Positions 13,929 to 64,000 of a stretch of 64,000 bases of DNA are shown here, piece by piece; within the stretch, counting starts at the first letter, position 1, and every line of letters begins with the position of its first letter. The notes beneath the pieces were generated by a model. That model ran no database searches. It worked only from the letters and a program-made list of their open reading frames with translations, and was not told where the DNA came from. The DNA is from a virus, in IMG/VR virus record IMGVR_UViG_3300048694_001252, positions 51,247 to 115,246 of that record. One strand, given 5' to 3'. A program made the position numbers and the translations under genes.

Positions 13929-13958
13929 TTGTAAACCACCTGCAGAATCGTGCATAAT
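13929..13958 (+). promoter_or_regulatory. Candidate sigma70 promoter for the tRNA and amber gene
   Basis: TTGTAA (13929-13934) and CATAAT (13953-13958) are separated by 18 bp, matching 4/6 and 5/6 of the sigma70 consensus. The predicted start would fall at the tRNA 5' end (13967). The spacing is good but the -35 box is only fair. Confidence 0.45.
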
Positions 13959-13966
13959 TACCATAT

Positions 13967-14040
13967 GCGCCCGAAGCTGATCGGATAGCCGGAGCCTCTA
14001 AAACTCCTGGTAGCGGGTTCGACTCCCGCCTGGCGCACCA
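13967..14040 (+). tRNA. Suppressor-type tRNA, anticodon CUA (reads UAG)
   Basis: The 74-nt sequence folds as a cloverleaf with encoded CCA. The acceptor stem is GCGCCCG/CTGGCGC with one C-T mismatch; the D arm is GCTG-ATCGGA-TAGC with G18G19; the anticodon stem is GGAGC/ACTCC with a C-A closing mismatch. The seven-base loop CTCTAAA has U33 and A37 flanking CTA, the variable region is TGGTA, and the T arm is GCGGG-TTCGACT-CCCGC. The discriminator is A. Position 8 is A instead of the near-universal U. The GCGCCCG acceptor recalls bacterial and phage tRNA-Arg genes, so it may derive from one, but the charging amino acid cannot be told from sequence. It is the only tRNA I find, and it sits 18 bp before a gene with an amber codon at position 3. 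Confidence 0.88.
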
Positions 14041-14058
14041 CTAACCAAGGAGACTTTC

Positions 14059-14601
14059 ATGTCCTAGATTGAATATGCATGCCGAGATTGTGTTTTTCAT
14101 TTCAACAAAAAACATCTAGAAGACCCCACCGTGCCCATGTGGGTAATCAAAACACATGGTGAAACGTTCTATGTGAATCATGTCACATGCGAACTTGCCT
14201 GGTCAACCAAAGAAACCCCCGACAACACGCATACCAAAGGATCTCTCAAGATCCGTGAATGCCTGCTGACCATTGACGATGCCAATGAGGCCCGACTCAC
14301 TGAACTCACAGTCTGGGATCGGGTTCGTCTGCGCAATCAGCGACTGGGTATAACTCGAATCATATTTGCATACGGTAGTGATATCCATCGTGCGCTCAAG
14401 GCCAAGGAGTTCCGGCACAGCTCTTTCAAGAACGTGAGCGGAGGATGCGGTACCAGTTTTGTGGTCTGTGATCTCCTAGATCCAGCAGAGGCCACGTTTG
14501 CTGCTCTCAAATATCAGTTCAGAGTAATGAAACCCAATGAAGATTATTATCGAGCCTATGATCAACCCGGATCTCACATAGAGGAATCGGGAGAATACTG
14601 A
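14059..14601 (+). CDS. Amber-interrupted gene: in-frame TAG at codon 3 (180 residues if read through)
   Basis: AAGGAG stands six bases before ATG 14059, the strongest Shine-Dalgarno placement in this island. The reading is ATG-TCC-TAG (amber at 14065-14067), then open to TGA 14599-14601. The early part includes YACRDCVFHFNKKHLEDP, with a CxxC pair at residues 8 and 11, and runs without a break into VPMWVIKTHGETFYVNHVT. The later part has ELAWSTKETPDNTHTKGS and CLLTIDDANEARL. Proteins of the WVIKT-GE-FYV type are, as I recall, a family of unknown function in T4-like phages. Without suppression only Met-Ser is made, unless weak starts at GTG 14131 or ATG 14137 are used, which lack a good Shine-Dalgarno. 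The CUA tRNA directly upstream would allow full translation. A TGG-to-TAG or CAG-to-TAG change would explain codon 3. A sequencing error is the main alternative. Confidence 0.75.
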
Positions 14602-33162: not shown

Positions 33163-33592
33163 CTGGTAATAGAGAGATCTCTTGCGAGATCTGTTGATTC
33201 GCTTGCGCTCATCAACTGTTTCCGAGCGGAGCGATTTTTAGGATCATCTAGATGGAGTGGTCACACTTGGCCCGCACAGGGCCAAGATTGATCTGCACAT
33301 CATCTGAGTATCGCAGTCACCTAGCGTTAGAGCATTACAGAGGCGGTTGTCCGGTACCTCGAGCTCCGTCTTATTACAACGGCGGCCTGCATCAAATACG
33401 CTAACATTCCATGCAGACGTGCACGATCACTCGTGCGTCATTGGGCCTTGATATCCTGTTCTAACAATCAAACCCCGGCGTTTTGGGATCCTCGTCCTGT
33501 GAAGGATAGTGATTGAGAGCTCCTGCGGCGGAGTCTTTGGTCCCGGTGATCCGATAGATCCCGTTGTCATCAGTGCACGAATTTGGCCTGCA
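33163..33592. other. 430-bp gap without a convincing gene, rich in hairpins
   Basis: The stretch separates two convergent genes. Perfect hairpins include AGATCTC/GAGATCT (33175-33192), GTTGAT/ATCAAC (33193-33216) and CTTGGCCC/GGGCCAAG with a 5-nt loop (33266-33286). Others are CTGCAT/ATGCAG (about 33397-33416) and GCACGA/TCGTGC (about 33421-33436). A TTTTT run at 33235-33239 may end plus-strand transcription. On the minus strand the frame of the next gene stays open for 43 codons past its amber stop, to a second TAG, and an overlapping 47-codon ATG frame (33570-33427) is also open; neither has a good ribosome-binding site. A structured RNA, a terminator region or gene remnants are all possible. 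Confidence 0.4.
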
Positions 33593-34033
33593 CTAGCCCT
33601 GACCGCTTAGTTTGCCTCGGATATGACTGCCATGCACACGTACCTGGATGTGGCCGTTGTAGTAGCTGTCACTCTCTAACACACGCTGACTAAATTGTTC
33701 TCTTGCTTCGATGTAGCTGCATTCTGCCCGGCTTTTGCAATAATAAAGTATTTCGCGCTGGAAGTTTTGGTTGCCTAGTTTTGCGATGTCTTGGAGCAGT
33801 TGGGGGCTAGACCCCCAATAGTCTCGCCAATCACTCTCGACTTGTGTGCGTATTTTGCGTTTTCGTTTGTTGCCGTTTTTGAATTTGACTGTGCGTTGCC
33901 TGGTCTTGCGAAATTGAGCTAGTTTTTTGCCTATGTACTTGCGCTGCGTGATGAGATTGGTTATTTCATATACAAAACCCGCACAATCTAGGGGCAGTTG
34001 TTCTACTGGGTTGCCTTGATATAGCCATGTCAT
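33593..34033 (-). CDS. GIY-YIG/Seg-like endonuclease-type protein (146 aa)
   Basis: The N-terminal part CAGFVYEITNLITQRKYIGK is a GIY-YIG-like pair (FVYEI...KYIGK), followed by a basic stretch KFKNGNKRKRKIRTQVESDW, then YWGSSPQLLQDIAKLGNQNF and CSYIEAREQFSQRVLESDSY with the expected Glu. Proteins of this layout are common in T4-like phages and are labelled Seg-like or hypothetical; nuclease activity is inferred. The ATG lies within a palindromic element and lacks a Shine-Dalgarno sequence. The gene is last in the gp55-gp47-gp46 operon and ends in TAG; amber readthrough would add 43 residues, including NGIYRITGTKDSAAGALNHY, before another TAG. Confidence 0.72.
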   Translation of the reverse strand: MTWLYQGNPVEQLPLDCAGFVYEITNLITQRKYIGKKLAQFRKTRQRTVKFKNGNKRKRKIRTQVESDWRDYWGSSPQLLQDIAKLGNQNFQREILYYCKSRAECSYIEAREQFSQRVLESDSYYNGHIQVRVHGSHIRGKLSGQG

Positions 34034-51900: not shown

Positions 51901-52681
51901 TATTGAGATGGCCAAAAACCAATGGGTACCTGGGCAGGTGTTTTATGCCACGTCTGAGGAGGCTTTTTATCAATTGAACATAACCACAGATGGTGTGCTG
52001 CAAGTAAACCCAATATCGGGCTGGCAAGCGCGGGTGGGACGTCAGGCTCTGTACTATCAATATCGACACAATGCGCCCCTGACCACACGTATTGATCCTG
52101 GTACTACCAACATCATAGATCTCTATCTGGTTACCAATCAATTCTATACTGCCTATCAAAATTGGTTGAGAGATACCACGGGCACTGTGCTTGAACCCGA
52201 ACCACCCACCATTGGTGAGCTCAGTACAGCATATCAGGCTCTGGATGATTACAAAATGTTGAGCGACAATATTGTGCCCAACAGTGTGGTTTTCAAACCG
52301 CTGTTTGGTGCCAAGGCTGCCCCGCAATTGCGAGCCACTGTCAAGGTCATACGTGCAGCCAACAGCACCGCAACCTCTAGCGAAATCAAGAGCGCAGTAT
52401 TGGCACAGATGAACGCCTATTTCAGCATCGACATCTGGAACTTTGGTGACACCTTTTATTTCAGCGAACTGGCTGCATATCTGCACCGTACACTGGGTAC
52501 CATCATATCTTCGGTGGTCTTGGTCCCCCTTGACCCACAAAAGAGCTTTGGTGATCTATACGAAATCCGCAGTCAGCCCAACGAGATTTTTGCCAATGCA
52601 GCAACCATTGACAACATTGATGTGATAGAAGCCTTGACCAGCGTCAATTTGCATACAGCACCAGGTAGTGGAGTAATTTGA
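48977..52681 (+). CDS. 6: Baseplate wedge protein gp6 (1,234 aa)
   Basis: The N-terminal half matches gp6: LRKSFIDYLRLYYPETFNDY, SEFIALLDIIAFMGQSLAFR, TDLNTRENYIDTAERRDSVT and RLANLVSYTAKRNTAAQGLL, followed by FGDGVFSEIPVGTFRAYVRA. The C-terminal part has IRAANSTATSSEIKSAVLAQ and MNAYFSIDIWNFGDTFYFSE, as in the J-type baseplate family. It is about twice as long as T4 gp6 (660 aa), with extra beta-rich insertions in the middle (about 560-1000). gp6 dimers form the iris ring of the baseplate periphery. The stop overlaps the next ATG (TGATG). Confidence 0.93.
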   Translation: MAQTTRQTAIFGVEDWKQIYQTYREADFQSYDFETLRKSFIDYLRLYYPETFNDYVESSEFIALLDIIAFMGQSLAFRTDLNTRENYIDTAERRDSVTRLANLVSYTAKRNTAAQGLLKVFNVVTTENVVDYNGVNLGNIIVNWNDPTNPDWQEQFTTIINAALVDSQKIGRPGNRQSILGVLTDEYAVNLVPGFLPVISYSATVDNISMPFEAMSSTTVGEDYIYEPPPRPGVSFNMLYRNDQMGYASADTGYFFLFKQGVLQNQDFNLPERIANRTVNINIEGVNNQDRWLFQLDNVGNINREWQYVENIYSAAAQQQQQLRPIYTVNSRTNDQITMVFGDGVFSEIPVGTFRAYVRASNGLQYIINPEEMQNVTLPINYISRTGNLETITFTCGITKPVSNAQARESINDIKQRAPARYYTQNRMVNGEDYNLFPFTAYNSILKSKAVNRSSIGTSRYLDLVDNTGKYSSTNTFGSDGGLWEENILPAILFSWTNRNEIADVIANQIQPHLIDPTMRQFYYANFPRELCNTFDIQCTATTSGTNAITVSDTNADDFFNRYVTTSVLPLQIVFNGDVGGGIISGLPYYIIGINSINKTFTVSTAPNGSATVLTNSTVTMPATINLNTYNTTWHQSTTLANETTGYFVNNSSSPIAIGSTSSTTLRYAVVGSLVRFVAPSGYYFDANNHLQVGVPQRPEEHLEIWASPIKISGDGSNNGLGNFSNGQGPVTLNDFVPTGAIVDTIIPLFATDLTTSVKQQITEQMLLYKTFGLGYDNDGSITGTPYSWYVITATNINTDAPWSQTYAGNTSGLNLDASWLAQFVVENQNYTITFRGLAYVFGSVLQTRFFFYGDEQIYDSRSGTVIRDFIDVLSVNTEPDSNAHLPGSIYTTIIGQPVEPDGYVDDFKVLVSYRDHDNDGVPDNPDFFEEIVAPTVNPTQKLIFLQQVVDFDNLQRYVLVEPGRVSSDYATLPDIEMAKNQWVPGQVFYATSEEAFYQLNITTDGVLQVNPISGWQARVGRQALYYQYRHNAPLTTRIDPGTTNIIDLYLVTNQFYTAYQNWLRDTTGTVLEPEPPTIGELSTAYQALDDYKMLSDNIVPNSVVFKPLFGAKAAPQLRATVKVIRAANSTATSSEIKSAVLAQMNAYFSIDIWNFGDTFYFSELAAYLHRTLGTIISSVVLVPLDPQKSFGDLYEIRSQPNEIFANAATIDNIDVIEALTSVNLHTAPGSGVI

Positions 52682-55600
52682 TGGCACGTTTTAGAACAGT
52701 AAACTATCTTCCCGAGATTTTTCAAACCGATGCCAACCGGCAATTTTTGGCAGCCACACTTGATACCCTAGTACAAGAACCACAACTCAAGCAGACACAG
52801 GGTTTCATAGGTCGCACAGTGGGACCGGGTGTGATACCCGAAGACCGTTATGTAGTAGAGCCCAATAAAACACGTGCCGACTATCAGTTGGAGCCGGGTG
52901 TGATCAGCCTTGATCCCAAGGATACTGCTCGCATACAAGATGCCATTACCTATCCTGGTATACTTGAATCGGTATCTGCTCGCGGTGGCGTGGGCAGCAG
53001 ACCCGATCGCCTCATGCAGAGCGATTACTACACCTGGGATCCATTTTGCAATTTTGATAGTCTGGTCAACTACAGTCAATATTACTGGCTGCCCAATGGA
53101 CCTGATGCAGTAGATGTAAGTGCCACTGGAATACCGGTCACTGACACATTTGATGTGACTCGTGCCAATGGTGTGTATACTTTTTCAGGCCTGGCTGGCA
53201 CCAACCCCACTGTTGAATTGGTGCGTGGTGGCAGTTACATTTTCAATGTATACCAGAACAGCAAAGAAACTGTAAACTTCAAGGTCAGCAATCAGGGTCT
53301 GGCCGGATACACCATAGACAATCAGGTCAATCCCACGATTACCCTGGCTCGGGGCAACACCTATGTGTTCAATCTGGTTCTGCGTGGTCCCTACCCCTTC
53401 TGGATCAAGACCAATAACGAACTGGGCACAGCCTATGCCTACAATGATGGCGTCACACGTAACGGTAGCTTGACCGGGATCGTGACTTTTGTAGTTCCTC
53501 AAGACGCTCCGGATGTGCTGTATTATGTGTCGGAAAATCAACCCAACATGCGTGGTATGATCAATATCGTGGATGGTGACCCCGGAACCGGCCCTGGTTT
53601 CTGGATCCAAACCGAACCCGGTATTGGTGGCCGAAACAGCGCCAGCCCCAACATCTCCACACGTGAAGTCCTGGGTGTGATCAACAATGGTGAAGATCTG
53701 GGCACCGTGGTATTCAACGTGCCTACCAAGACACAGCAGAACTATTTCTACAATCTACCCACCTACAGTCTACCTGTGGATCTGGTCAGCACCATAAGCT
53801 ATACCGATCTGCAGGGTCAAAGCGTGAGTGGATTCCTGCAGATCTATGGTGGCATCGATGGCGTCAGTAATCTTGACAATCGCACTGTGATTTTCACAGG
53901 TGGTAGTCCCGGGATTGACCCGCCTGATACCCGCCAATTGTTCCAGATCACCTATGACTATATTGACAACATTCCCTACATCAATGTGGCCAAGATAGCC
54001 GACATACCCAATCAATGCAAGTGGATGATACGTTATGGCACGATGTATTCCAATACGCAATGGTACAAGACTCCGCAGGGTACCTTCAAACGAATGCCAC
54101 TGCTGACTGCGGCACTGGATACTCTGTACTATCAGGATGGCACTGATCCTGGTATAGTGGGAAAAATACGGCTCGTTGATCCAGTCAACAGCAGTACCAT
54201 CTATATCGATGACATCCTGGGCAAAAAGAACTATACCAGTCCCAACGGAGTCACATTTACCAATGGACTCAAGGTGGTGTTTCGTGGTGATGTATTGCCA
54301 GACACCTATGCCAGCAACACCATCACGATCGATTGTTTATCCACCACTAGCCAACAAAATCTCATCAGTACCTACAGCACCGAACATCTACGTGTGGGTC
54401 AAGAAATCATATTCTCGGCACCCACGCTGGGCGGTCTGACACCGGCACAGCCCTACTATGTGCGCTTCATAGACAATGTGTTGCAGTTTCAAGTTTCTGA
54501 AACGCCCGATGGTGCCGCAGTAGCCCTAGCCAACGGAACTGGCCATATGTTGGCGGCCGTGACCAATTATCGTGCCTATTATGTGGCCGGTGTGGGTACC
54601 GCTATCCAACTATTGCCAGTGACCGATTTCGTTACACCTGAACTGTATATCGGTGATGAAAACGAGTCCGGTAGCACGGTACCGCTCTTGCCGGACTATA
54701 TCACGATTGATCGTGCCAGTTCCGATCACAATGCATGGAGCCGCAGCAATCGCTGGTTCCATATTGATGTGATACAGGCCACAGCCGAATACAACAACAC
54801 CATAGTCACGCTCAATGAAACTGATCGTGCACGTCGCCCTATCATACAGTTCAATGCGGGGATACGCCTATTTGACATGGGCTCACAGGGCCTGGCTCCG
54901 GTTGATGTGATTGATTTTACCGAAACCGATGCTCTAAGCAATGTGGAGGGTGCTACCAGTTATACCGTTTATGGATATAGCGTAATCAATGGTTCCAGGA
55001 TTATTTTTGCCAATGATCTAGATCCACAGGTGCGGGACAAAATATGGCAGGTAGAATTTATCTATCCCGATACAGTACCGCCCCTGGTCAGTCAACCTGT
55101 GATACATTTGCGCTTGGCCGATGATGGTGATGTGGCGGTTGATATGTGCACGGTGATCTTGAATCACGGTACCAGTCAGCTACCGGTTCCCACAGGTGAA
55201 ACAGAAATCATAGGTGGACAAACGGTGATCAAGGGTCAAGCCGGAGCCAGCTACTGGTATGATGGTACGGCTTGGATAGCATCACAAACCAAGACACAGG
55301 TGCAGCAGCCACCACTGTTCAATGTGTATGACATGCAGGGCGTGAGTTTTAGCGATCGTGTCAAATATCCCAGCACTGACTTTGCAGGAACTCGGTTGTT
55401 CAGTTACGCCATCAGTGATGTTGGTGTCAAAGATGTGGTGTTGGGTTTTCCTCTGCGATACCTCACTATCAACAATCTAGGTGATATTGTTTTTGACAAC
55501 AACCTCTACACCGATCAATTCAACTACGTCAAAGATAAAGGCAGTTATACACAGTCGATCAGTGCAGGTACGCCAAGAGTATACAGCACACGCACGGAAT

Positions 55601-58600
55601 ACCAACGTGTGCTAGGTTGGCAAGATGCTGTGACTACCACGCAGGTATATCAGCAGTTCCGATTCGTATTCACCACAGTGAATCTTGAATTGGATGTGGT
55701 GGTAAGCGAACGCACTGATATACCTGTGGTCAAGGTCTATGTCAACAACGTATGGCTACCACCGGCGGGATTCAGTATCGCACGATATGACAAACGAACT
55801 GTGATAACTCTGGCCACAGCACCGGCACCAGATAGCATTATAGAAGTCGTGGCACTGAGCGAGCAGACTAGCAATACCGGTTTCTATCAGGTACCCATCA
55901 ATCTACAAAACAATCCGTTCAACGCCAACAGCGATGCCTTTACCTTGGGTACCATACGGCAACACTATCAGAGCATTTGCGAAAATCTCTTGCCATTGTC
56001 GGGTCCGGTAAATGGTGCAAACAACTCTCGTGACCTTGGTGATATTGTGCCCTATGGTCAGGTGATATTACAACAGAGCGCACCGCTCACCTTGGCCGGT
56101 TACTTTTTGCGTAGCAACAAGTTCAATATCTGGAACAGTCTGGTCTATAACGGCCGAGAGTACACCAAATACAAAAATCTCATACTAGAAAACGTCACTC
56201 AGCAGGTGATCAATTTTGAAACTGCGGCTCAAATACTCGATCGTGCCATAGCCAATGTGACTCAAGGGCGCGTAGAAACACAGCCATTCTATTGGTCCGA
56301 CATGTTGCCTTCGGGATCAATCTATCAAGAAACTGTCTACCCCATCACATACATCACCACGCGCACTTTCAACACGCTTTACGTGCATGATTATACTTCG
56401 GCCAATTATCTTGGCATGGATGTGTATCTAGATGGAGACATACTCACTCGCGGGCGTGATTATACTGTGGCCGCCAATGCTGCCACGATCACAGTCATAA
56501 CCACGCTGGCAGTGGGTCAGACTCTGACCATTCGAGAGTACGAGACCACTGCGGGCAGTTTCTGCCCCAACACACCCACCAAGCTGGGATTGTATCCGGC
56601 CTGGCAACCGGAAATAGTGGTGCAGACCACCACGGACGGCGAGCAAGCCATGATCATGGGTCATGATGGCAGCGCCACCAAGATTTTTGGGGATATACGT
56701 GATAGCGTGTTATTGGAGTTTGAAACACGCATCTACAACAATCTCAAATTGGATGACAATCCAGTACCCTTGACTATAGCAGATGTGTTACCGGGGCAAT
56801 TCAGACGTACCGGATTTGATCTGAGCGAGATACAGAATATTCTCAATCAAGATTTCCTGAGCTGGATAGCCTGGAACAAATTGGATTATACCACACAAGA
56901 ATTCAATATTTCCAACAGCTTTACCTACAATTATAGCCAGGCCCAAAATCGCCTGGATTCGTCCCTGCTGCCCGGAGCTTGGCGCGGTATCAATCGCTAT
57001 TTCTATGACACAGTGCAGCCACAAAGCACACCATGGGAGATGCTGGGATTCTCGGTCAAGCCCACTTGGTGGGATCTCACCTATGGTACCGGACCCTACA
57101 CCGATGGTAACTTGGTGTTGTGGGATGATCTTGAGGCAGGTATCGTGCGTGATCCCCTGGGAGCCTATGTGCTTCCGGCCTATGTGCGTCCACGTCTGAC
57201 TCAAGTGATTCCCAGTGGCAGCGAGGGACAATTGCTATCGCCCCTGGACACTGTGGTGGGCAATTTTGAAGATGAAACGTTTGTTAATGATTGGTCAGTG
57301 GGCAATGGCGGACCCACCGAAGCGTCATGGTGGACCAGCAGTCTCTATCCCTTTGCTGTGATGCGCGTGTTGGCTCTGACTCGCCCGGCCAAGTTCTTTT
57401 CACTGTTCGTGGATCGCGATCTCTATCGCTACAACAGCGAATTTGAACAATACCTCTATCGGGGTCGTTATCGCATGGATGCTCGCGATCTTGAAGTGTA
57501 TGGCAATGGAGTTAGCAAGGCCAGCTTCATGAACTGGATCGTGGATTACAATCGTCAAACCGGCCTGGACAGTACCCAGGAAATGTCTCAGGATCTAGCC
57601 AATCTAGATGTGCGGTTGTGTTATCGCATGGCCAGCTTCTCAGACAAACAATACATCACGCTCATGACCGAGCGCAGTACTCCCAACAGCAACAACAGCG
57701 GATTCACCATACCCGACAACAGTTATCAATTGTTGCTGTACAAGAATCAAGTGTTTGCTGAAGTGACCTACAGCTCGGTCATCGTACAACGTACCAATAC
57801 CGGATATCAGGTGTTTGGCTATAGCACCTTGCAGCCCTATTTCACACAGACTGTGAGCATGAGCACCAGTAAGCCACTCACGATCACATCAGGTGGTATC
57901 ACAGTACAGGTCAGCACAGTATTCAGCAATATCACGCAACAGATACCTTACAGCACGGAATTTGCCACGCCCCAAGAAGTGGCCCAATTCTTATTGTGTT
58001 ACGGCCACTGGCTAGGAACTCAAGGTTTTGTGTTTGACAACATCAGTAATGGTTATGTACTGGATTGGACTCGCATGGCGTCTGAGTTCCTCTACTGGGC
58101 CGGTCAAGACTGGGACAATGGTGTATTGATCAACATCAATCCCTTGGCACAAAAATTGCAGATCACCAAGGCTCAAAGTGTGGTGGACAGTCTCCAGGTA
58201 CAGAGCGCCGAAAACGTGTTGCTGGATCAAAATCGTCGAGAACTACCCACTCGCAATCTCAACATCGTGCGATTGGACAATACTCTCACTGTAGAGCCCA
58301 TGACTGATCAAAGCCTCAGTTTCGTAGATCTTAATTTTACCAGCTACGAACACATGATAGTGCTGAACAATCGCAGCGAGTTTGGCGATCTTATACTAGA
58401 TCCTACCACCGGTGCGAGACAGTCGCGCTTGTATCTCATGACCACGAATACCAGCGACTGGAATGGTAGCATCGATACCCCGGGCTTCATACTCAACCGT
58501 GACAACATCGAAGCGTGGACCGGTTTGAGAACCTATGCCAAAGGCGAGATAGTGCGTCACAAAGGTAGCTATTGGAGCGCGGCCACGATCGTGCAACCCA

Positions 58601-61600
58601 GCGCCAGATTCAACTACAATGACTGGTTACAGAGCGATTATACCAAGATTGAACAGGGTCTCCTGCCCAACCTGGCCAACAAAGCGGTACAATTGCAACA
58701 GAGCTATGACATCAATCAGGCCAACATTGACAGTGAACAGGATCTATTCAGCTTTGGTTTGATCGGATTCCGCCCGCGACAGTATCTGGCCGCGTTAGAT
58801 CTTGACAGTGTGGGCCAAGTCAATGTGTATCGACAATTCTTGGGCACCAAAGGTACCAAGCTCAGTGCAGAAAATCTACGTTCCAGCCGCCTGACCAAGG
58901 AGCAGGCTGATTATGCTATCTTTGAAAACTGGGCAGTACAGCGCGGAGTCTATGGCGCAAATGCCAATCGTAGCTTCGTGGAATTCCGACTGAATCGAGC
59001 TCTTTTGAGCGCCAATCCCAGTACAGTACAGGTGATCAATGCCGGTGAATCCAGCGAAGCTGATCAGACCATACTGTTGGGAAATATCTGGCGCCAGAGC
59101 TACAAACTGACCACAACCGACATATTCCCTACCACGCTAGATTTGCCCACTGATGTGGGATTGCCCAGCGCCGGCTATGTGGATATTGACGATGTGGATA
59201 TCACGGTATTTGATATCACAGATCCGGCCAATCTATCGGCCAACCTTGACAAGATAGGTGTGGGCACTTCGGTCTGGGTGGCCAAAATCAACGATTATGA
59301 TTGGAACATTTATCGTTGCGAAAGTATTCCAGGCAGCATCAATCATCTCTGCGATAATCTTGATGGTACCAGCCTGGTTATCTTTACCCAACAGCACGGA
59401 TTGTCTGTGGGTAATCAGTTGATCATAAGATTTTTTGACGCCGCGGTAGATGGCATTTACCGTGTGCTTTCGGTACCCAGCCTCAACCAGGTGACCATAG
59501 CCTATCAGTTTGTGGGTCGCGGTCGCACTGTGATAGATGGCACCGGTATCGGTTTCACGCTGGAAACCATGCGAGTGGCCCAATTCAGTGATTTGGTGAA
59601 TCTACCCTATGCCAATCAACTCACACCGGGTGCTAGAGCCTGGGTAGACGACGACGGCGATGGACGTTGGGGAGTGTATGAAAAGCAGGACATCTATACC
59701 GCTACTACCACGCTTGCCAGCAAAAATCCAGATGCAACTGAAGGCTATGGTGCCACGGTGGCCATGGGTGCCAATCAACAATCGGTTCTAGTGGGAAGCC
59801 CAAGATATGGATTCCCGGCAGGCGCGGAAAAAGGTGCCATCTATACCTACGTCAAAAACTATACCGGCACCTTCCAACCGGTCAGTCCGGTGCTGGGCAC
59901 GGATGCCATCCTAGAGCTAGGCACTGCAGATTCCAGAGGATTTGGTAGCAGCCTCAGCATAGGCAATCTAGATTGGGCCGTAGCTGGTGCACCTGGTAGC
60001 TTGGGCGGAGCGGCTCAGACCGATTCGGGATATGCTGCCGTGATACATCGCAGTGAAGCGGTAGTGCCCAACGCCAATCCTTATCAGCTGTGGCAATTGT
60101 TGACCACTCCGGGTCTGATCAATACAGATCAGGCTCAGTTTGGTAGCACCGTGGCCATGAGTCATGATGAGCGTTGGATGTACATTGGTGCACCCTACAA
60201 AGACAACGGTTCAGTTGCGGCCTACACTCGAGTAGAGTGGCGCGAACAGACACTGGACACTCATGGAACCGGATCTCAAACTGACTATGCGTTTGGTGGC
60301 ACGATAGAGATCAGTGATGCCAATCAACTAGCGGTCACCGTGAATGGCATATTACAAACGTTGGGAGTGGATTACTCGGTAAATCTCGTTACGCAACAGG
60401 TGATATTTGGATCGGCACCGGCTGCTGATCGACCCATACGTATTCGCAGGCTAGATGCTGTGCAGTTGGATGAAACAGCAGGACCCACCTATGATTTGGC
60501 ACAATATTTCTATCAGGTAGATCTCGCGGATAGCAATATCTATAGCTTCCAACTCACGCTCAATGGCGATCTATTGCGTCCCAATATCGATTATACATTC
60601 AACACCATGACCAAGATAGTGTCTATCTCGGCGGCGTTGACCCTGGGTGATGTATTGTTGGCTCGCGCCAGCTGGTACTGGCTCTATGTGGATACCATAT
60701 TACCGCCCACGATCACTGGTACCCCGGCTCTGTTTGGATCAAGTCTGGTCTGCACTACTGATGGTAGACAGGTCTTGATAGGTGCACGTAATCAGGATGT
60801 GGATGGGGTCGTGCAAGCCGGCTGTGTTTATGTGTATGATCGCGATGTACAGCGTTTCCATTATGGCGAAACCAGTACAGTAACGTTCACGGTGTTGGGC
60901 AGTGCGCCCAATCCACTAGCAGTATCGGTCTTGGTCAACAACCAGTTTTTGACACCCGAAACCAGCACAGTGGTAGATGCACCCAATAGCTTTACCGTAA
61001 GCGGCAACAACATCACAGTCAATACCGATCTCGTTACAGGTGATTTTGTCGACATTGAGACCAATCAATTCCAGTTAGCACAGGTGATCATGCAGGACCA
61101 GATTGCGGAATTCAGCAACTATGGACAGGCAGTCGACATCTGCCGGTACAATTGCAGTCTCTATGTGGGAGCACCACAGAGCAGCGTACAGATATTCAAG
61201 GGTGGTGTGGTAGAACGCAGCGTGAATCAGGCCCGATCTTTTGGTATCATCGCCAGCGTCAACACCAATCCGGTACTAACTCCCGGTGATACTCTGCGGG
61301 TCAACAATCAAGATGTTGAGGTTCCCGCGGCCAGTGGCAGCGTGTCCAGCCTGCAGGGTTTGGCCCTGGCCATAACCAATCAGGTACCCAATACGCAGGC
61401 CTCAGTCACAAACGGAGTGTTGCAGATCACAGTAATGAACATGGCAGCCTCGGTACCGGGCAATCGTTTGCAGGTGGCACCTGGCACTGTGGGTACCGCG
61501 TTCGATGATCTAGGGTTCGACACCTTTGTGATAGCCCAGACCATAACCAGTCCCCTGCCACTACAATATGCGCAATTTGGTGCCGCACTTACCATATCAG

Positions 61601-64000
61601 ACACAGCCACAGAATTGTTAGTGGCCGCTCCCGCAGGCAGTACCTATCTCGTGATAGAATTTGACAACGATCAAACCGATTTTGATGCTGGATCTACGCT
61701 GTTGTTCAATTCCAGCGATGGTAGTGGTGCTGTCTATGTTTACGATTACTTGCCGTCAAATCAACCCAGCGTGACCAATCCGGCAAAGTTTATACTGGGA
61801 CAGCAGATCGCTATTTCAGATCTAGGCACTCTGGATCAACTGGGTCGGGGCTTGAGCTATCGCGATGGTGTGTTACTCATGGGAGCTCCGGGCAGTGATC
61901 TCAACGACAGCAGCCAGGCCGATTATGGGCGAGTGTATATCTGGCAAAATCCCACTCGTGAATCAGCCTGGCGTCTGCTGCATCGAGAAACTGCGGTAGT
62001 GGACATTCGCATGCTGGATAGCGTATATCTGTACAATCTAGTCAGCAGTGAGACCACGCAGTTCTTGGATTTCTTCAGTCCCTTGCAGGGCAAAATCCTG
62101 GGTGCTGCGCAGCAAAATATCGATTTTATCAGTGCAGTTGATCCGGCCGGTTACAACGTGGGTGCCATAGGATCCAAGGGTCAGACCTGGGGGCAGGATC
62201 GTGTGGGTGAAACTTGGTGGGATGTTTCCAGTGTGCGTTTCTTGGACAGCAGCCAAGACAACATCACCTATGATGCACGTCAGTGGGGTCGGGTATTTCC
62301 GGGCAGCCAGATCAACATATATCAGTGGATCGTGAGTGCTGTACCACCGGCCAACTATAGCGGTCCTGGGCAGGTGCGAGATGTGACGAATTATTCTGTG
62401 AATTCCGTGCTCACCCGCGAAGGTATATTGCAAACTCAATATTTCTTCTGGGTAAGTGATCTCACTACCATAGCCACCAACAAGGGCAAAACGCTATCGA
62501 TCTCTACGGTAGCTCAATACATAGAAAACCCGCGCCTGAGTGGTATCGCTTATATGGCACCTATCAATGCCAACACTGTGGCCCTATACAATTGTCAAAA
62601 TCTTATAGAAGCCCAGGACACTGTGCTACATGTTGAGTTTGATCGCGAACTCAATGATGACAATGTGCATATAGAGTATCAATTGATACCGCAAGATCGT
62701 GCAGATGGTTGGCTCAGTGACAGTTTGTATCGCAAATTGTTGGATAGCTTCTGTGGTGTGGATGCAGCCGGCAATCTTGTGCCCGATAATTCACTGAGTC
62801 CGGCCGAACAGTATGGTGTGCAATTCCGTCCTCGCCAGAGCATGTTCTCGGATCGCTTCCTGGCGCTCAAGACCTATATTGTGCGCTCCAATACTATATT
62901 GGCTCAATATCCCATAGTGGAAATGCGCAATCTTGGCCTACTCAATAGCGAACAGCCCATACCACCTGTCAATTCAGGTGAATACGACGTACAGGTAGCT
63001 GACATAGAAATATTGGGATACCAAAACATATATCAGGTGCCCTTGGGTTATCGATATCTAGTCCAGACTGATAGTTCTGAATTTGGTCTCTGGACCATAT
63101 ATCAGGTGGTCTTGACCGGAGAAAGTGTTACCAGAGAATTGAGATTGGTTCAAGTGCAGAATTATCGCACTGCCGATTACTGGAACTATATCGATTGGGT
63201 TCGTCCCGGATATAATGCCAGCATCCAGCCCTTGGCTCAGGTGGCAAACTACAGCGCTCTAGATACAGTATCGGTGCCTGTGGGCAGCAGTGTCAAGGTC
63301 CTGGCCAACAGTCAAGGCATGTACGAAATCTACTTGCGTACCGACACCGGATGGGAGCGTGTGGTATTGCAGAATGGTACCATAGCCATATCTGATACCA
63401 TATATGATTATCCCGCAGGCCGATTTGGCTTTGACGCCGAGGCTTTTGACACCCTATATTTTGATCAAGATCCCACTACGGAAACTCGTCGTATTTTACA
63501 AGCACTCAACGAACAGATTTTCACAGATGAGCTCTTGATCTATCGCAATCAACTGTTGATCTTGATGTTCAATTTTGTATTGACTGAATTCCCGGCGCCG
63601 CAGTGGTTGATGAAAACCAGCTTGATTGACGTGGATCATAGACTACGAAGTCTGTTGCCGTTCCCCAACTATCAATTGGACAATCAGGAATTCGTGGTAG
63701 ATTACATTCAGGAAGTCAAGCCCTATCATGTGCAAATACGACAGGTCAATCTGCGCTATTTTGGTCAGGACGATTTCATGGGTGACATCACAGACTTTGA
63801 TGTTCCGGCCTATTACAATACAGCATTGGATATACCTCAATATGTGAGTCCCATCCTGACTCCCTATGCCATAAGCACAGCCACAGGGTCGCCTAGTACG
63901 ATCCAGAGCGATGCCTCGGCCACTGACCCCATCTGGACTCAGTGGCCCTGGAGTCAATGGTATGGCCACTATCTCATGTTGATTGATGGTGTCACTGTGG
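52681..64000 (+). CDS. Giant virion structural protein, at least 3,773 aa (runs off the window)
   Basis: The frame starts at ATG 52681, overlapping the gp6 stop, and stays open to the window end. The start MARFRTVNYLPEIFQTDANR with MQSDYYTWDPFCNFDSLVNY is characteristic of giant structural proteins behind gp6 in aquatic T4-like phages. The body alternates beta-rich segments with Tyr/Trp-rich parts. Residues about 2350-3100 hold a series of FG-GAP-like blades (YGATVAMGANQQSVLVGSPR, FGSTVAMSHDERWMYIGAPY, GRGLSYRDGVLLMGAPGSDL), suggesting an integrin-type beta-propeller. Near the end, VDYIQEVKPYHVQIRQVNLR is another conserved piece. A role at the baseplate rim or as fibre attachment, with adhesion by the propeller, is inferred. 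It has no internal stop of any kind, including TAG. Confidence 0.88.
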   Translation, partial: MARFRTVNYLPEIFQTDANRQFLAATLDTLVQEPQLKQTQGFIGRTVGPGVIPEDRYVVEPNKTRADYQLEPGVISLDPKDTARIQDAITYPGILESVSARGGVGSRPDRLMQSDYYTWDPFCNFDSLVNYSQYYWLPNGPDAVDVSATGIPVTDTFDVTRANGVYTFSGLAGTNPTVELVRGGSYIFNVYQNSKETVNFKVSNQGLAGYTIDNQVNPTITLARGNTYVFNLVLRGPYPFWIKTNNELGTAYAYNDGVTRNGSLTGIVTFVVPQDAPDVLYYVSENQPNMRGMINIVDGDPGTGPGFWIQTEPGIGGRNSASPNISTREVLGVINNGEDLGTVVFNVPTKTQQNYFYNLPTYSLPVDLVSTISYTDLQGQSVSGFLQIYGGIDGVSNLDNRTVIFTGGSPGIDPPDTRQLFQITYDYIDNIPYINVAKIADIPNQCKWMIRYGTMYSNTQWYKTPQGTFKRMPLLTAALDTLYYQDGTDPGIVGKIRLVDPVNSSTIYIDDILGKKNYTSPNGVTFTNGLKVVFRGDVLPDTYASNTITIDCLSTTSQQNLISTYSTEHLRVGQEIIFSAPTLGGLTPAQPYYVRFIDNVLQFQVSETPDGAAVALANGTGHMLAAVTNYRAYYVAGVGTAIQLLPVTDFVTPELYIGDENESGSTVPLLPDYITIDRASSDHNAWSRSNRWFHIDVIQATAEYNNTIVTLNETDRARRPIIQFNAGIRLFDMGSQGLAPVDVIDFTETDALSNVEGATSYTVYGYSVINGSRIIFANDLDPQVRDKIWQVEFIYPDTVPPLVSQPVIHLRLADDGDVAVDMCTVILNHGTSQLPVPTGETEIIGGQTVIKGQAGASYWYDGTAWIASQTKTQVQQPPLFNVYDMQGVSFSDRVKYPSTDFAGTRLFSYAISDVGVKDVVLGFPLRYLTINNLGDIVFDNNLYTDQFNYVKDKGSYTQSISAGTPRVYSTRTEYQRVLGWQDAVTTTQVYQQFRFVFTTVNLELDVVVSERTDIPVVKVYVNNVWLPPAGFSIARYDKRTVITLATAPAPDSIIEVVALSEQTSNTGFYQVPINLQNNPFNANSDAFTLGTIRQHYQSICENLLPLSGPVNGANNSRDLGDIVPYGQVILQQSAPLTLAGYFLRSNKFNIWNSLVYNGREYTKYKNLILENVTQQVINFETAAQILDRAIANVTQGRVETQPFYWSDMLPSGSIYQETVYPITYITTRTFNTLYVHDYTSANYLGMDVYLDGDILTRGRDYTVAANAATITVITTLAVGQTLTIREYETTAGSFCPNTPTKLGLYPAWQPEIVVQTTTDGEQAMIMGHDGSATKIFGDIRDSVLLEFETRIYNNLKLDDNPVPLTIADVLPGQFRRTGFDLSEIQNILNQDFLSWIAWNKLDYTTQEFNISNSFTYNYSQAQNRLDSSLLPGAWRGINRYFYDTVQPQSTPWEMLGFSVKPTWWDLTYGTGPYTDGNLVLWDDLEAGIVRDPLGAYVLPAYVRPRLTQVIPSGSEGQLLSPLDTVVGNFEDETFVNDWSVGNGGPTEASWWTSSLYPFAVMRVLALTRPAKFFSLFVDRDLYRYNSEFEQYLYRGRYRMDARDLEVYGNGVSKASFMNWIVDYNRQTGLDSTQEMSQDLANLDVRLCYRMASFSDKQYITLMTERSTPNSNNSGFTIPDNSYQLLLYKNQVFAEVTYSSVIVQRTNTGYQVFGYSTLQPYFTQTVSMSTSKPLTITSGGITVQVSTVFSNITQQIPYSTEFATPQEVAQFLLCYGHWLGTQGFVFDNISNGYVLDWTRMASEFLYWAGQDWDNGVLININPLAQKLQITKAQSVVDSLQVQSAENVLLDQNRRELPTRNLNIVRLDNTLTVEPMTDQSLSFVDLNFTSYEHMIVLNNRSEFGDLILDPTTGARQSRLYLMTTNTSDWNGSIDTPGFILNRDNIEAWTGLRTYAKGEIVRHKGSYWSAATIVQPSARFNYNDWLQSDYTKIEQGLLPNLANKAVQLQQSYDINQANIDSEQDLFSFGLIGFRPRQYLAALDLDSVGQVNVYRQFLGTKGTKLSAENLRSSRLTKEQADYAIFENWAVQRGVYGANANRSFVEFRLNRALLSANPSTVQVINAGESSEADQTILLGNIWRQSYKLTTTDIFPTTLDLPTDVGLPSAGYVDIDDVDITVFDITDPANLSANLDKIGVGTSVWVAKINDYDWNIYRCESIPGSINHLCDNLDGTSLVIFTQQHGLSVGNQLIIRFFDAAVDGIYRVLSVPSLNQVTIAYQFVGRGRTVIDGTGIGFTLETMRVAQFSDLVNLPYANQLTPGARAWVDDDGDGRWGVYEKQDIYTATTTLASKNPDATEGYGATVAMGANQQSVLVGSPRYGFPAGAEKGAIYTYVKNYTGTFQPVSPVLGTDAILELGTADSRGFGSSLSIGNLDWAVAGAPGSLGGAAQTDSGYAAVIHRSEAVVPNANPYQLWQLLTTPGLINTDQAQFGSTVAMSHDERWMYIGAPYKDNGSVAAYTRVEWREQTLDTHGTGSQTDYAFGGTIEISDANQLAVTVNGILQTLGVDYSVNLVTQQVIFGSAPAADRPIRIRRLDAVQLDETAGPTYDLAQYFYQVDLADSNIYSFQLTLNGDLLRPNIDYTFNTMTKIVSISAALTLGDVLLARASWYWLYVDTILPPTITGTPALFGSSLVCTTDGRQVLIGARNQDVDGVVQAGCVYVYDRDVQRFHYGETSTVTFTVLGSAPNPLAVSVLVNNQFLTPETSTVVDAPNSFTVSGNNITVNTDLVTGDFVDIETNQFQLAQVIMQDQIAEFSNYGQAVDICRYNCSLYVGAPQSSVQIFKGGVVERSVNQARSFGIIASVNTNPVLTPGDTLRVNNQDVEVPAASGSVSSLQGLALAITNQVPNTQASVTNGVLQITVMNMAASVPGNRLQVAPGTVGTAFDDLGFDTFVIAQTITSPLPLQYAQFGAALTISDTATELLVAAPAGSTYLVIEFDNDQTDFDAGSTLLFNSSDGSGAVYVYDYLPSNQPSVTNPAKFILGQQIAISDLGTLDQLGRGLSYRDGVLLMGAPGSDLNDSSQADYGRVYIWQNPTRESAWRLLHRETAVVDIRMLDSVYLYNLVSSETTQFLDFFSPLQGKILGAAQQNIDFISAVDPAGYNVGAIGSKGQTWGQDRVGETWWDVSSVRFLDSSQDNITYDARQWGRVFPGSQINIYQWIVSAVPPANYSGPGQVRDVTNYSVNSVLTREGILQTQYFFWVSDLTTIATNKGKTLSISTVAQYIENPRLSGIAYMAPINANTVALYNCQNLIEAQDTVLHVEFDRELNDDNVHIEYQLIPQDRADGWLSDSLYRKLLDSFCGVDAAGNLVPDNSLSPAEQYGVQFRPRQSMFSDRFLALKTYIVRSNTILAQYPIVEMRNLGLLNSEQPIPPVNSGEYDVQVADIEILGYQNIYQVPLGYRYLVQTDSSEFGLWTIYQVVLTGESVTRELRLVQVQNYRTADYWNYIDWVRPGYNASIQPLAQVANYSALDTVSVPVGSSVKVLANSQGMYEIYLRTDTGWERVVLQNGTIAISDTIYDYPAGRFGFDAEAFDTLYFDQDPTTETRRILQALNEQIFTDELLIYRNQLLILMFNFVLTEFPAPQWLMKTSLIDVDHRLRSLLPFPNYQLDNQEFVVDYIQEVKPYHVQIRQVNLRYFGQDDFMGDITDFDVPAYYNTALDIPQYVSPILTPYAISTATGSPSTIQSDASATDPIWTQWPWSQWYGHYLMLIDGVTV

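Follow-up and report, generated by a model that had tools for sequence, protein, structure and literature searches.

A gene with a stop as its third codon raises the question of whether, and by what means, it is translated. The gene considered here lies in a window of 64,000 nucleotides, the whole stretch of DNA that was analysed, which is the final 64 kb of an IMG/VR record of 115,246 bases. To judge by its gp23 capsid, portal and baseplate hub, the source is a T4-like phage. The stop is an amber codon, and directly upstream of the gene the phage carries a tRNA with the anticodon CUA, as if to read it. We consider it very probable, from the comparisons described below, that the phage CUA tRNA and this one amber-interrupted gene constitute a dedicated, natural gate in which translation depends on suppression. 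Away from this locus, the window contains a Polynucleobacter-1 RNA (Rfam RF01718, 91.2 bits, at 33462-33598 on the minus strand) and an open frame for a giant protein (52678-63999, plus strand), which has at least 3774 codons and no stop before the end of the record.

The anatomy of the locus is directly observed (Table 1). An earlier, sequence-only reading had described a CUA tRNA 18 bp ahead of a Shine-Dalgarno sequence, ATG, TCC, TAG and 177 further codons, and it was right in every coordinate. The gap of 18 nt separates the 3' end of the tRNA (14040) from the ATG (14059), TCC stands as codon 2 between ATG and TAG, and the 177 open codons behind the TAG end in TGA at 14599-14601. The tRNA call was borne out by ARAGORN, which reports a CTA anticodon at 13967-14040 under the label 'tRNA-Pyl', and by the Rfam tRNA model, which agrees. 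In its form the tRNA passes for a suppressor, with a cloverleaf, the CUA anticodon in the loop CUCUAAA (U33, A37) and a CCA end; it has two mismatches, C31-A39 and C6-U67. The -10 element of the upstream promoter is retained as TATAAT in the diverged contig L004, where the flanks differ. Since this promoter lies just 5' of the tRNA and no plus strand terminator was detected in the interval from tRNA to gene, the two are probably expressed as a single transcript from a shared promoter. The DNA of the locus is identical in L002 and L003, two contigs from other metagenomes, which excludes an assembly error; L004 has the same layout.

Table 1. Features of the tRNA and gated gene in the window, and of tmRNA and RF-1 family proteins in related loci (L) and records (G)
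Feature	Position	Strand	Basis or remark
Sigma-70-like promoter, TTGTAA-N18-CATAAT	13929..13958	+	consensus match 9/12 only; ends 8 bp before tRNA
Putative amber-decoding tRNA, anticodon CUA, CCA end encoded	13967..14040	+	ARAGORN; Rfam tRNA 45.0 bits (gathering score 29)
Shine-Dalgarno sequence AAGGAG, then N6, ATG	14047..14052	+	sequence
ATG start codon of gated gene	14059..14061	+	Shine-Dalgarno spacing; frame common to protein in amber loci
In-frame amber codon TAG (codon 3), next base A	14065..14067	+	conserved in 114/120 distinct loci
Putatively amber-gated gene, 180 codons including TAG	14059..14601	+	alignments; structure model
tmRNA	L005:5291-5708		15 bp from CUA tRNA
tmRNA	L011:4433-4813		directly adjoining CUA tRNA
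Further tmRNA loci	L045, L048, L068, L092, L100, L102, L103		often near amber gene
RF-1 family protein	G015:312348-312635		
RF-1 family protein	G016:231273-231590		
RF-1 family protein	G017:63369-63683		
RF-1 family protein	G018:293773-294084		
RF-1 family protein	G020:309673-309957		

The gene has hundreds of relatives, found in four scans of viral contigs (the best 80 of up to 390 per scan). All come from viral collections, and a pattern scan of a collection of bacterial and archaeal genomes yielded none. The amber loci were recruited by mutual homology, and the sample represents one family rather than a census. In 114 of 120 distinct loci, far more than chance would give, the TAG is found at one alignment position, immediately before the conserved protein and 1-12 codons after an in-frame ATG (in one of these loci no ATG is within reach). 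It is kept down to about 45% protein identity and is never TAA or TGA. Six further loci were missed by the motif, and in these the TAG is present in all except L192 (L030 and L290 are one locus). Of 104 distinct loci, 89 have AAGGAG or AAGGA ahead of the outer ATG. The terminal stop of the gated genes, where readable, is TAA in 71 cases and TGA in 38, and never TAG.

The codons from ATG to TAG are unrelated among phages and free to vary. The position of the TAG is taken in four loci (L070, L042, L215 and L244) by an ordinary ATG that has a Shine-Dalgarno sequence of its own. The amber state undergoes only five changes on a tree of 116 sequences: four of them are these loci, each a single tip surrounded by amber sequences, and the last concerns a group attached by long branches, which comprises L192 and the fusions in Phosso and Atu_ph07. 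Judging from the alignments, the gated protein seems to work without an extra N-terminus or an inserted residue, yet nearly every lineage retains the TAG. Because the codons ahead of the TAG show no conservation and a plain ATG replaces it in four independent lineages, it appears that the stop itself is kept as a gate and that the residue is dispensable. The base following the TAG is A in 106 of the 114 amber loci, compared with 26 of 68 ordinary UAG stops. An A in this position favours suppression of UAG; its prevalence is partly due to a conserved isoleucine codon. The gated gene is unannotated in RHph_I1_18, an isolated Rhizobium phage, where the annotated tRNA-Pyl(cta) comes after it.

The pattern of codon changes shows coding selection on the stretch that runs from the TAG to the first ATG inside the gene. 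In the region after the TAG, changes at the first, second and third codon positions number 18709, 11071 and 53268. Between the TAG and the first internal ATG, 39237 single-base codon differences are synonymous and 6353 nonsynonymous; these are all-pairs counts and not independent events, with a clear direction. The residue after the TAG is mostly Ile, and also Val, Lys, Asn, Thr or Gln. It is followed by the fixed residues VFHFNK-HL-D, in which FHFNK-HL is invariant while the codons vary, that of the valine freely. ATG, TAG and protein share one frame in the amber loci, without a +1 frameshift. The internal MWVIKT start, considered by the sequence-only reading as a rival beginning of the protein, is not where the relatives start: in about 120 loci, homology continues upstream of it as far as the amber codon.

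Linkage to a CUA tRNA was assessed in the 86 distinct amber loci that have at least 2.9 kb of flank on each side. ARAGORN places such a tRNA within about 3 kb of the gene in 73 of them, and nine more were found by whole-record searches or with a looser filter (L080, L083, L087, L097, L098, L099, L102, L242 and L199, the last with an unusual C33), so that 82 of the 86 have a CUA tRNA on the same strand within about 5 kb. As for the other four, whole-record scans of L262 (G032, 299 kb) and L189 (G035, 150 kb) found an amber gene and no CUA tRNA; the remaining two, L052 and L224, are fragmentary. Across the full set of distinct amber loci, 99 CUA tRNAs were counted, every one on the strand of the gene and 91 of them upstream, at a median distance of 387 nt. 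In 13 records of 50-374 kb the distance between the gene and a CUA tRNA is 0.1-4.8 kb, and 1 Mb of sequence from three jumbo records holds no genuine CUA tRNA besides the gene-adjacent ones.

Among 38 CUA tRNAs of the family, 16 of the 19 predicted pairs show compensatory changes. The bodies of the tRNAs differ in divergent phages (GGCCACG..., GCTTCGT..., GTGTGCT...), and the presence of CUA tRNAs with unrelated bodies beside the gene indicates that the link is to the anticodon. The inserted amino acid cannot be read from these tRNAs, in which position 73 is A or G and the acceptor stems are lineage-dependent. In most of them, across diverged sequences and including the tRNA of the window, the 31-39 pair is non-Watson-Crick (C-A, A-C or U-C); the mismatch may tune suppression, the efficiency of which may be low. 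The amber-less loci L215, L244, L042, L192 and L070 have CUA tRNAs as well, 0.2-8.5 kb away and some with unrelated bodies. They lie upstream in L215 (0.2 kb), L042 (1.0 kb) and L244 (1.9 kb), 2.6 kb downstream in L192, and in two copies about 8 kb upstream in L070. In Phosso, a non-amber relative, the CUA tRNA is far from the gene. In Atu_ph07, likewise without the amber codon, no CUA tRNA was seen; its suppressor tRNA is UCA, not CUA (PMC6102473).

Elsewhere in these genomes, UAG is a normal stop. The sequence-only reading had counted it at 7 of 35 stops; in the record of the window, TAG terminates 20 of 84 called genes, and in three jumbo relatives 10 of 347, 17 of 352 and 21 of 351. When the four genomes were screened for in-frame stops, the unmasked screen gave hundreds of shadow-frame matches and became readable once real genes were masked. 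The gated gene was then the only clear coding case with a conserved in-frame TAG, in a screen of limited power for genes not common to these genomes. The remaining TAG matches were in tRNA arrays or weak. The proposal of a local device, as opposed to global recoding, is thus upheld for the four genomes.

A lone in-frame stop near the 5' end could signal a pseudogene or an assembly error. The identical and diverged contigs described above, the same TAG in more than 100 distinct loci to about 45% identity and the strong purifying selection downstream refute this explanation, which we regard as practically out of the question. A CUA suppressor tRNA could also be the sign of a code in which TAG is reassigned (code 15), the gene being one of many that are recoded. 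This is highly improbable, and refuted for the four records screened, in all of which TAG ends called genes and no other clear conserved internal TAG is present. A further possibility is that no suppressor is involved, and that translation starts downstream of the TAG, at the AUU or AUC codon, at the GTG of VFHF or at the ATG of PMW, with the ATG-x-TAG minigene feeding re-initiation. The short minigene with its Shine-Dalgarno sequence does end just before the protein, and the codon after the TAG is ATT or ATC in 93 of 114 loci. However, this codon varies (it is otherwise GTA, AAA, AAT, ACT or CAA), as does that of the valine, and with 1-12 codons from ATG to TAG no downstream start has a constant Shine-Dalgarno spacing. 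The internal ATG is without a Shine-Dalgarno sequence in 102 of 103 loci, and a start there would forfeit the most conserved strand. A minigene would, moreover, have no need of TAG in preference to the other two stops, or of a CUA tRNA close by. Re-initiation appears very improbable.

In the suppressor-dependent gate that we prefer, ribosomes would initiate at the ATG behind the Shine-Dalgarno sequence and reach the UAG within a few codons. Termination by RF1 would yield only a useless short peptide. The charged CUA tRNA would compete with RF1, and protein would be made in proportion to the readthrough. The tRNA would have to be made, processed and charged first, and only then could the protein appear, so that the arrangement would be a coherent feed-forward gate, silent without the tRNA. 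We infer the charging of the tRNA, its reading of the UAG in this gene, the shared transcript and the purpose discussed below.

The gated protein is predicted to consist of an N-terminal beta domain and an alpha/beta C-terminal domain (model mean pLDDT 90.2), with residues 2-12 after the TAG as the first beta strand. Pfam, PHROG, PDB-sequence and two Foldseek PDB searches returned nothing on its function. In particular, there was no Pfam release-factor match and no PDB relative. Matches in BFVD were a 52% identical uncharacterised phage protein and, more weakly, small phage proteins. The neighbouring genes are mostly unconserved, and the context gives no clue to function beyond the tRNA. In Phosso and Atu_ph07 (L023 and L024), the N-terminal domain is fused behind an N-terminal region of roughly 95 residues, without an amber codon, and the Phosso fusion gene is near one annotated peptidyl tRNA hydrolase. 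In L018 and L047, small ORFs resembling the C-terminal domain of the gated protein (KHxPFK...LKY) are found downstream (+439 to +693 and +511 to +687, respectively, counted from the FHFNK motif) and are perhaps a duplicated domain.

What might the gate be for? The on/off switch suggested by the sequence-only reading stands as regards the amber gate, which is family-wide in large phages, and is perhaps half right in supposing a plain switch, because amber-less phages keep the CUA tRNA. A gate without feedback would be a plain timing or leak-proof switch. Its product would be an effector with no part in translation, either harmful or specific to one stage, which the amber codon would only hold back until the phage tRNA accumulates. 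The order of promoter, tRNA and gene in the window fits the feed-forward design of Ho et al. (PMC7969014), and we place this explanation a little short of probable. It does not account well for the persistence of CUA tRNAs near the gene in lineages without the amber codon, nor for the many phages whose tRNA lies at a distance of hundreds to thousands of bases, with no single obvious unit. Since amber-less lineages keep CUA tRNAs, the protein may belong instead to the handling of amber suppression. As the purpose of the gate, we tentatively and slightly favour a sensor role, although we hold it to be less likely than not; the amount of protein would report UAG readthrough versus RF1, much as the UGA of prfB reports RF2, and the protein would limit or offset suppression. 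Recent loss of the amber codon would also explain the CUA tRNAs in amber-less lineages, and the weight of this evidence for a sensor is therefore moderate.

The sensor could be part of a homeostat for leakage of the genetic code, in which the phage would unleash amber suppression in its host, protein made in proportion to this suppression would curb it or make good its damage, and the amber codon would be the selected sensor. The phage tmRNA and, in some phages, an ArfB-sized RF-1 family protein would be enlisted as well. We consider this possible, if rather doubtful. All ten records of 229 kb or more (G015-G024) encode one permuted tmRNA of betaproteobacterial type, which in seven of them lies within about 15 kb of the gated gene. 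RF-1 (GGQ) family proteins occur in 5 of 13 records; their frames, of 139-189 aa, match a codon-independent (ArfB-type) rescue factor in size. The co-occurrence of tmRNA and RF-1 family proteins with the gated gene bears on the sensor role by association only; the incomplete record of the window itself has neither. According to Ueda et al. (2002), as cited in PMC3985003, tmRNA copes with readthrough by suppressor tRNAs.

CUA tRNAs without genome-wide recoding have been described in phages XacN1 (PMC5852040) and Summit (PMC9022506) and in clade 8 of the Zeta crAss-like phages (PMC12386605). Targets of the suppressor tRNAs were sought and not found for XacN1 (PMC5852040) and Summit (PMC9022506), and the authors of the Zeta crAss-like study ask why such tRNAs are kept (PMC12386605). 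In those phages no target gene was identified, whereas here it is explicit and conserved. The gated gene family has no tblastn match in XacN1, and a search for a hidden amber gene beside the XacN1 suppressor tRNAs revealed none. For the phage group studied here, a target gene is thus supplied for the puzzle of suppressor tRNAs in phages with the standard code. The gene is visible in more than 100 phage loci, yet it can escape annotation, as in RHph_I1_18, and standard gene calling can hide amber-gated genes in this way. Phages with code 15 (PMC10607447, PMC13037316) likewise use a phage CUA tRNA to decode in-frame UAG; they have many interrupted genes, whereas here a single gene is interrupted in one place and UAG is still a stop. 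The pyrrolysine system shares the CUA tRNA and the ARAGORN label 'tRNA-Pyl'. The tRNA of the window has two bases (AA) between acceptor and D stem and a D loop with GG; it lacks the one-base link, minimal D loop and 6-bp anticodon stem of tRNA-Pyl, and the ordinary Rfam tRNA model fits it. The PylS synthetase scored over the cut-off in none of 13 records and in one control genome.

Searches of the literature outside subscription-only papers and preprints turned up no description of a natural phage gene that the phage's own suppressor tRNA gates. In the synthetic feed-forward loop of Ho et al. (PMC7969014), a suppressor tRNA gates a gene with a nonsense codon and leakage is near zero; that loop is engineered, whereas the present one would be natural. 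The prfB gene for RF2, with UGA at codon 26, likewise keeps an early stop across distant relatives, and its output reports the strength of termination (PMC5009743). A 3' base unfavourable to termination is retained at the RF2 frameshift site (PMC5009743), and the 3' context of the conserved stop is similar in this respect in the gated gene. Both genes have a conserved stop near the 5' end, in front of an intact coding sequence. They differ in that prfB uses +1 frameshifting, while the gated gene keeps its frame and its UAG would be read by a tRNA, and in that prfB encodes the factor that reads its stop, while the gated gene encodes no recognisable release factor. If the gate works as we read it, it would be a natural exception to the code, made of one tRNA and one gene and serving as a switch or sensor, a kind of logic for which RF2 and engineered circuits are the other known examples.
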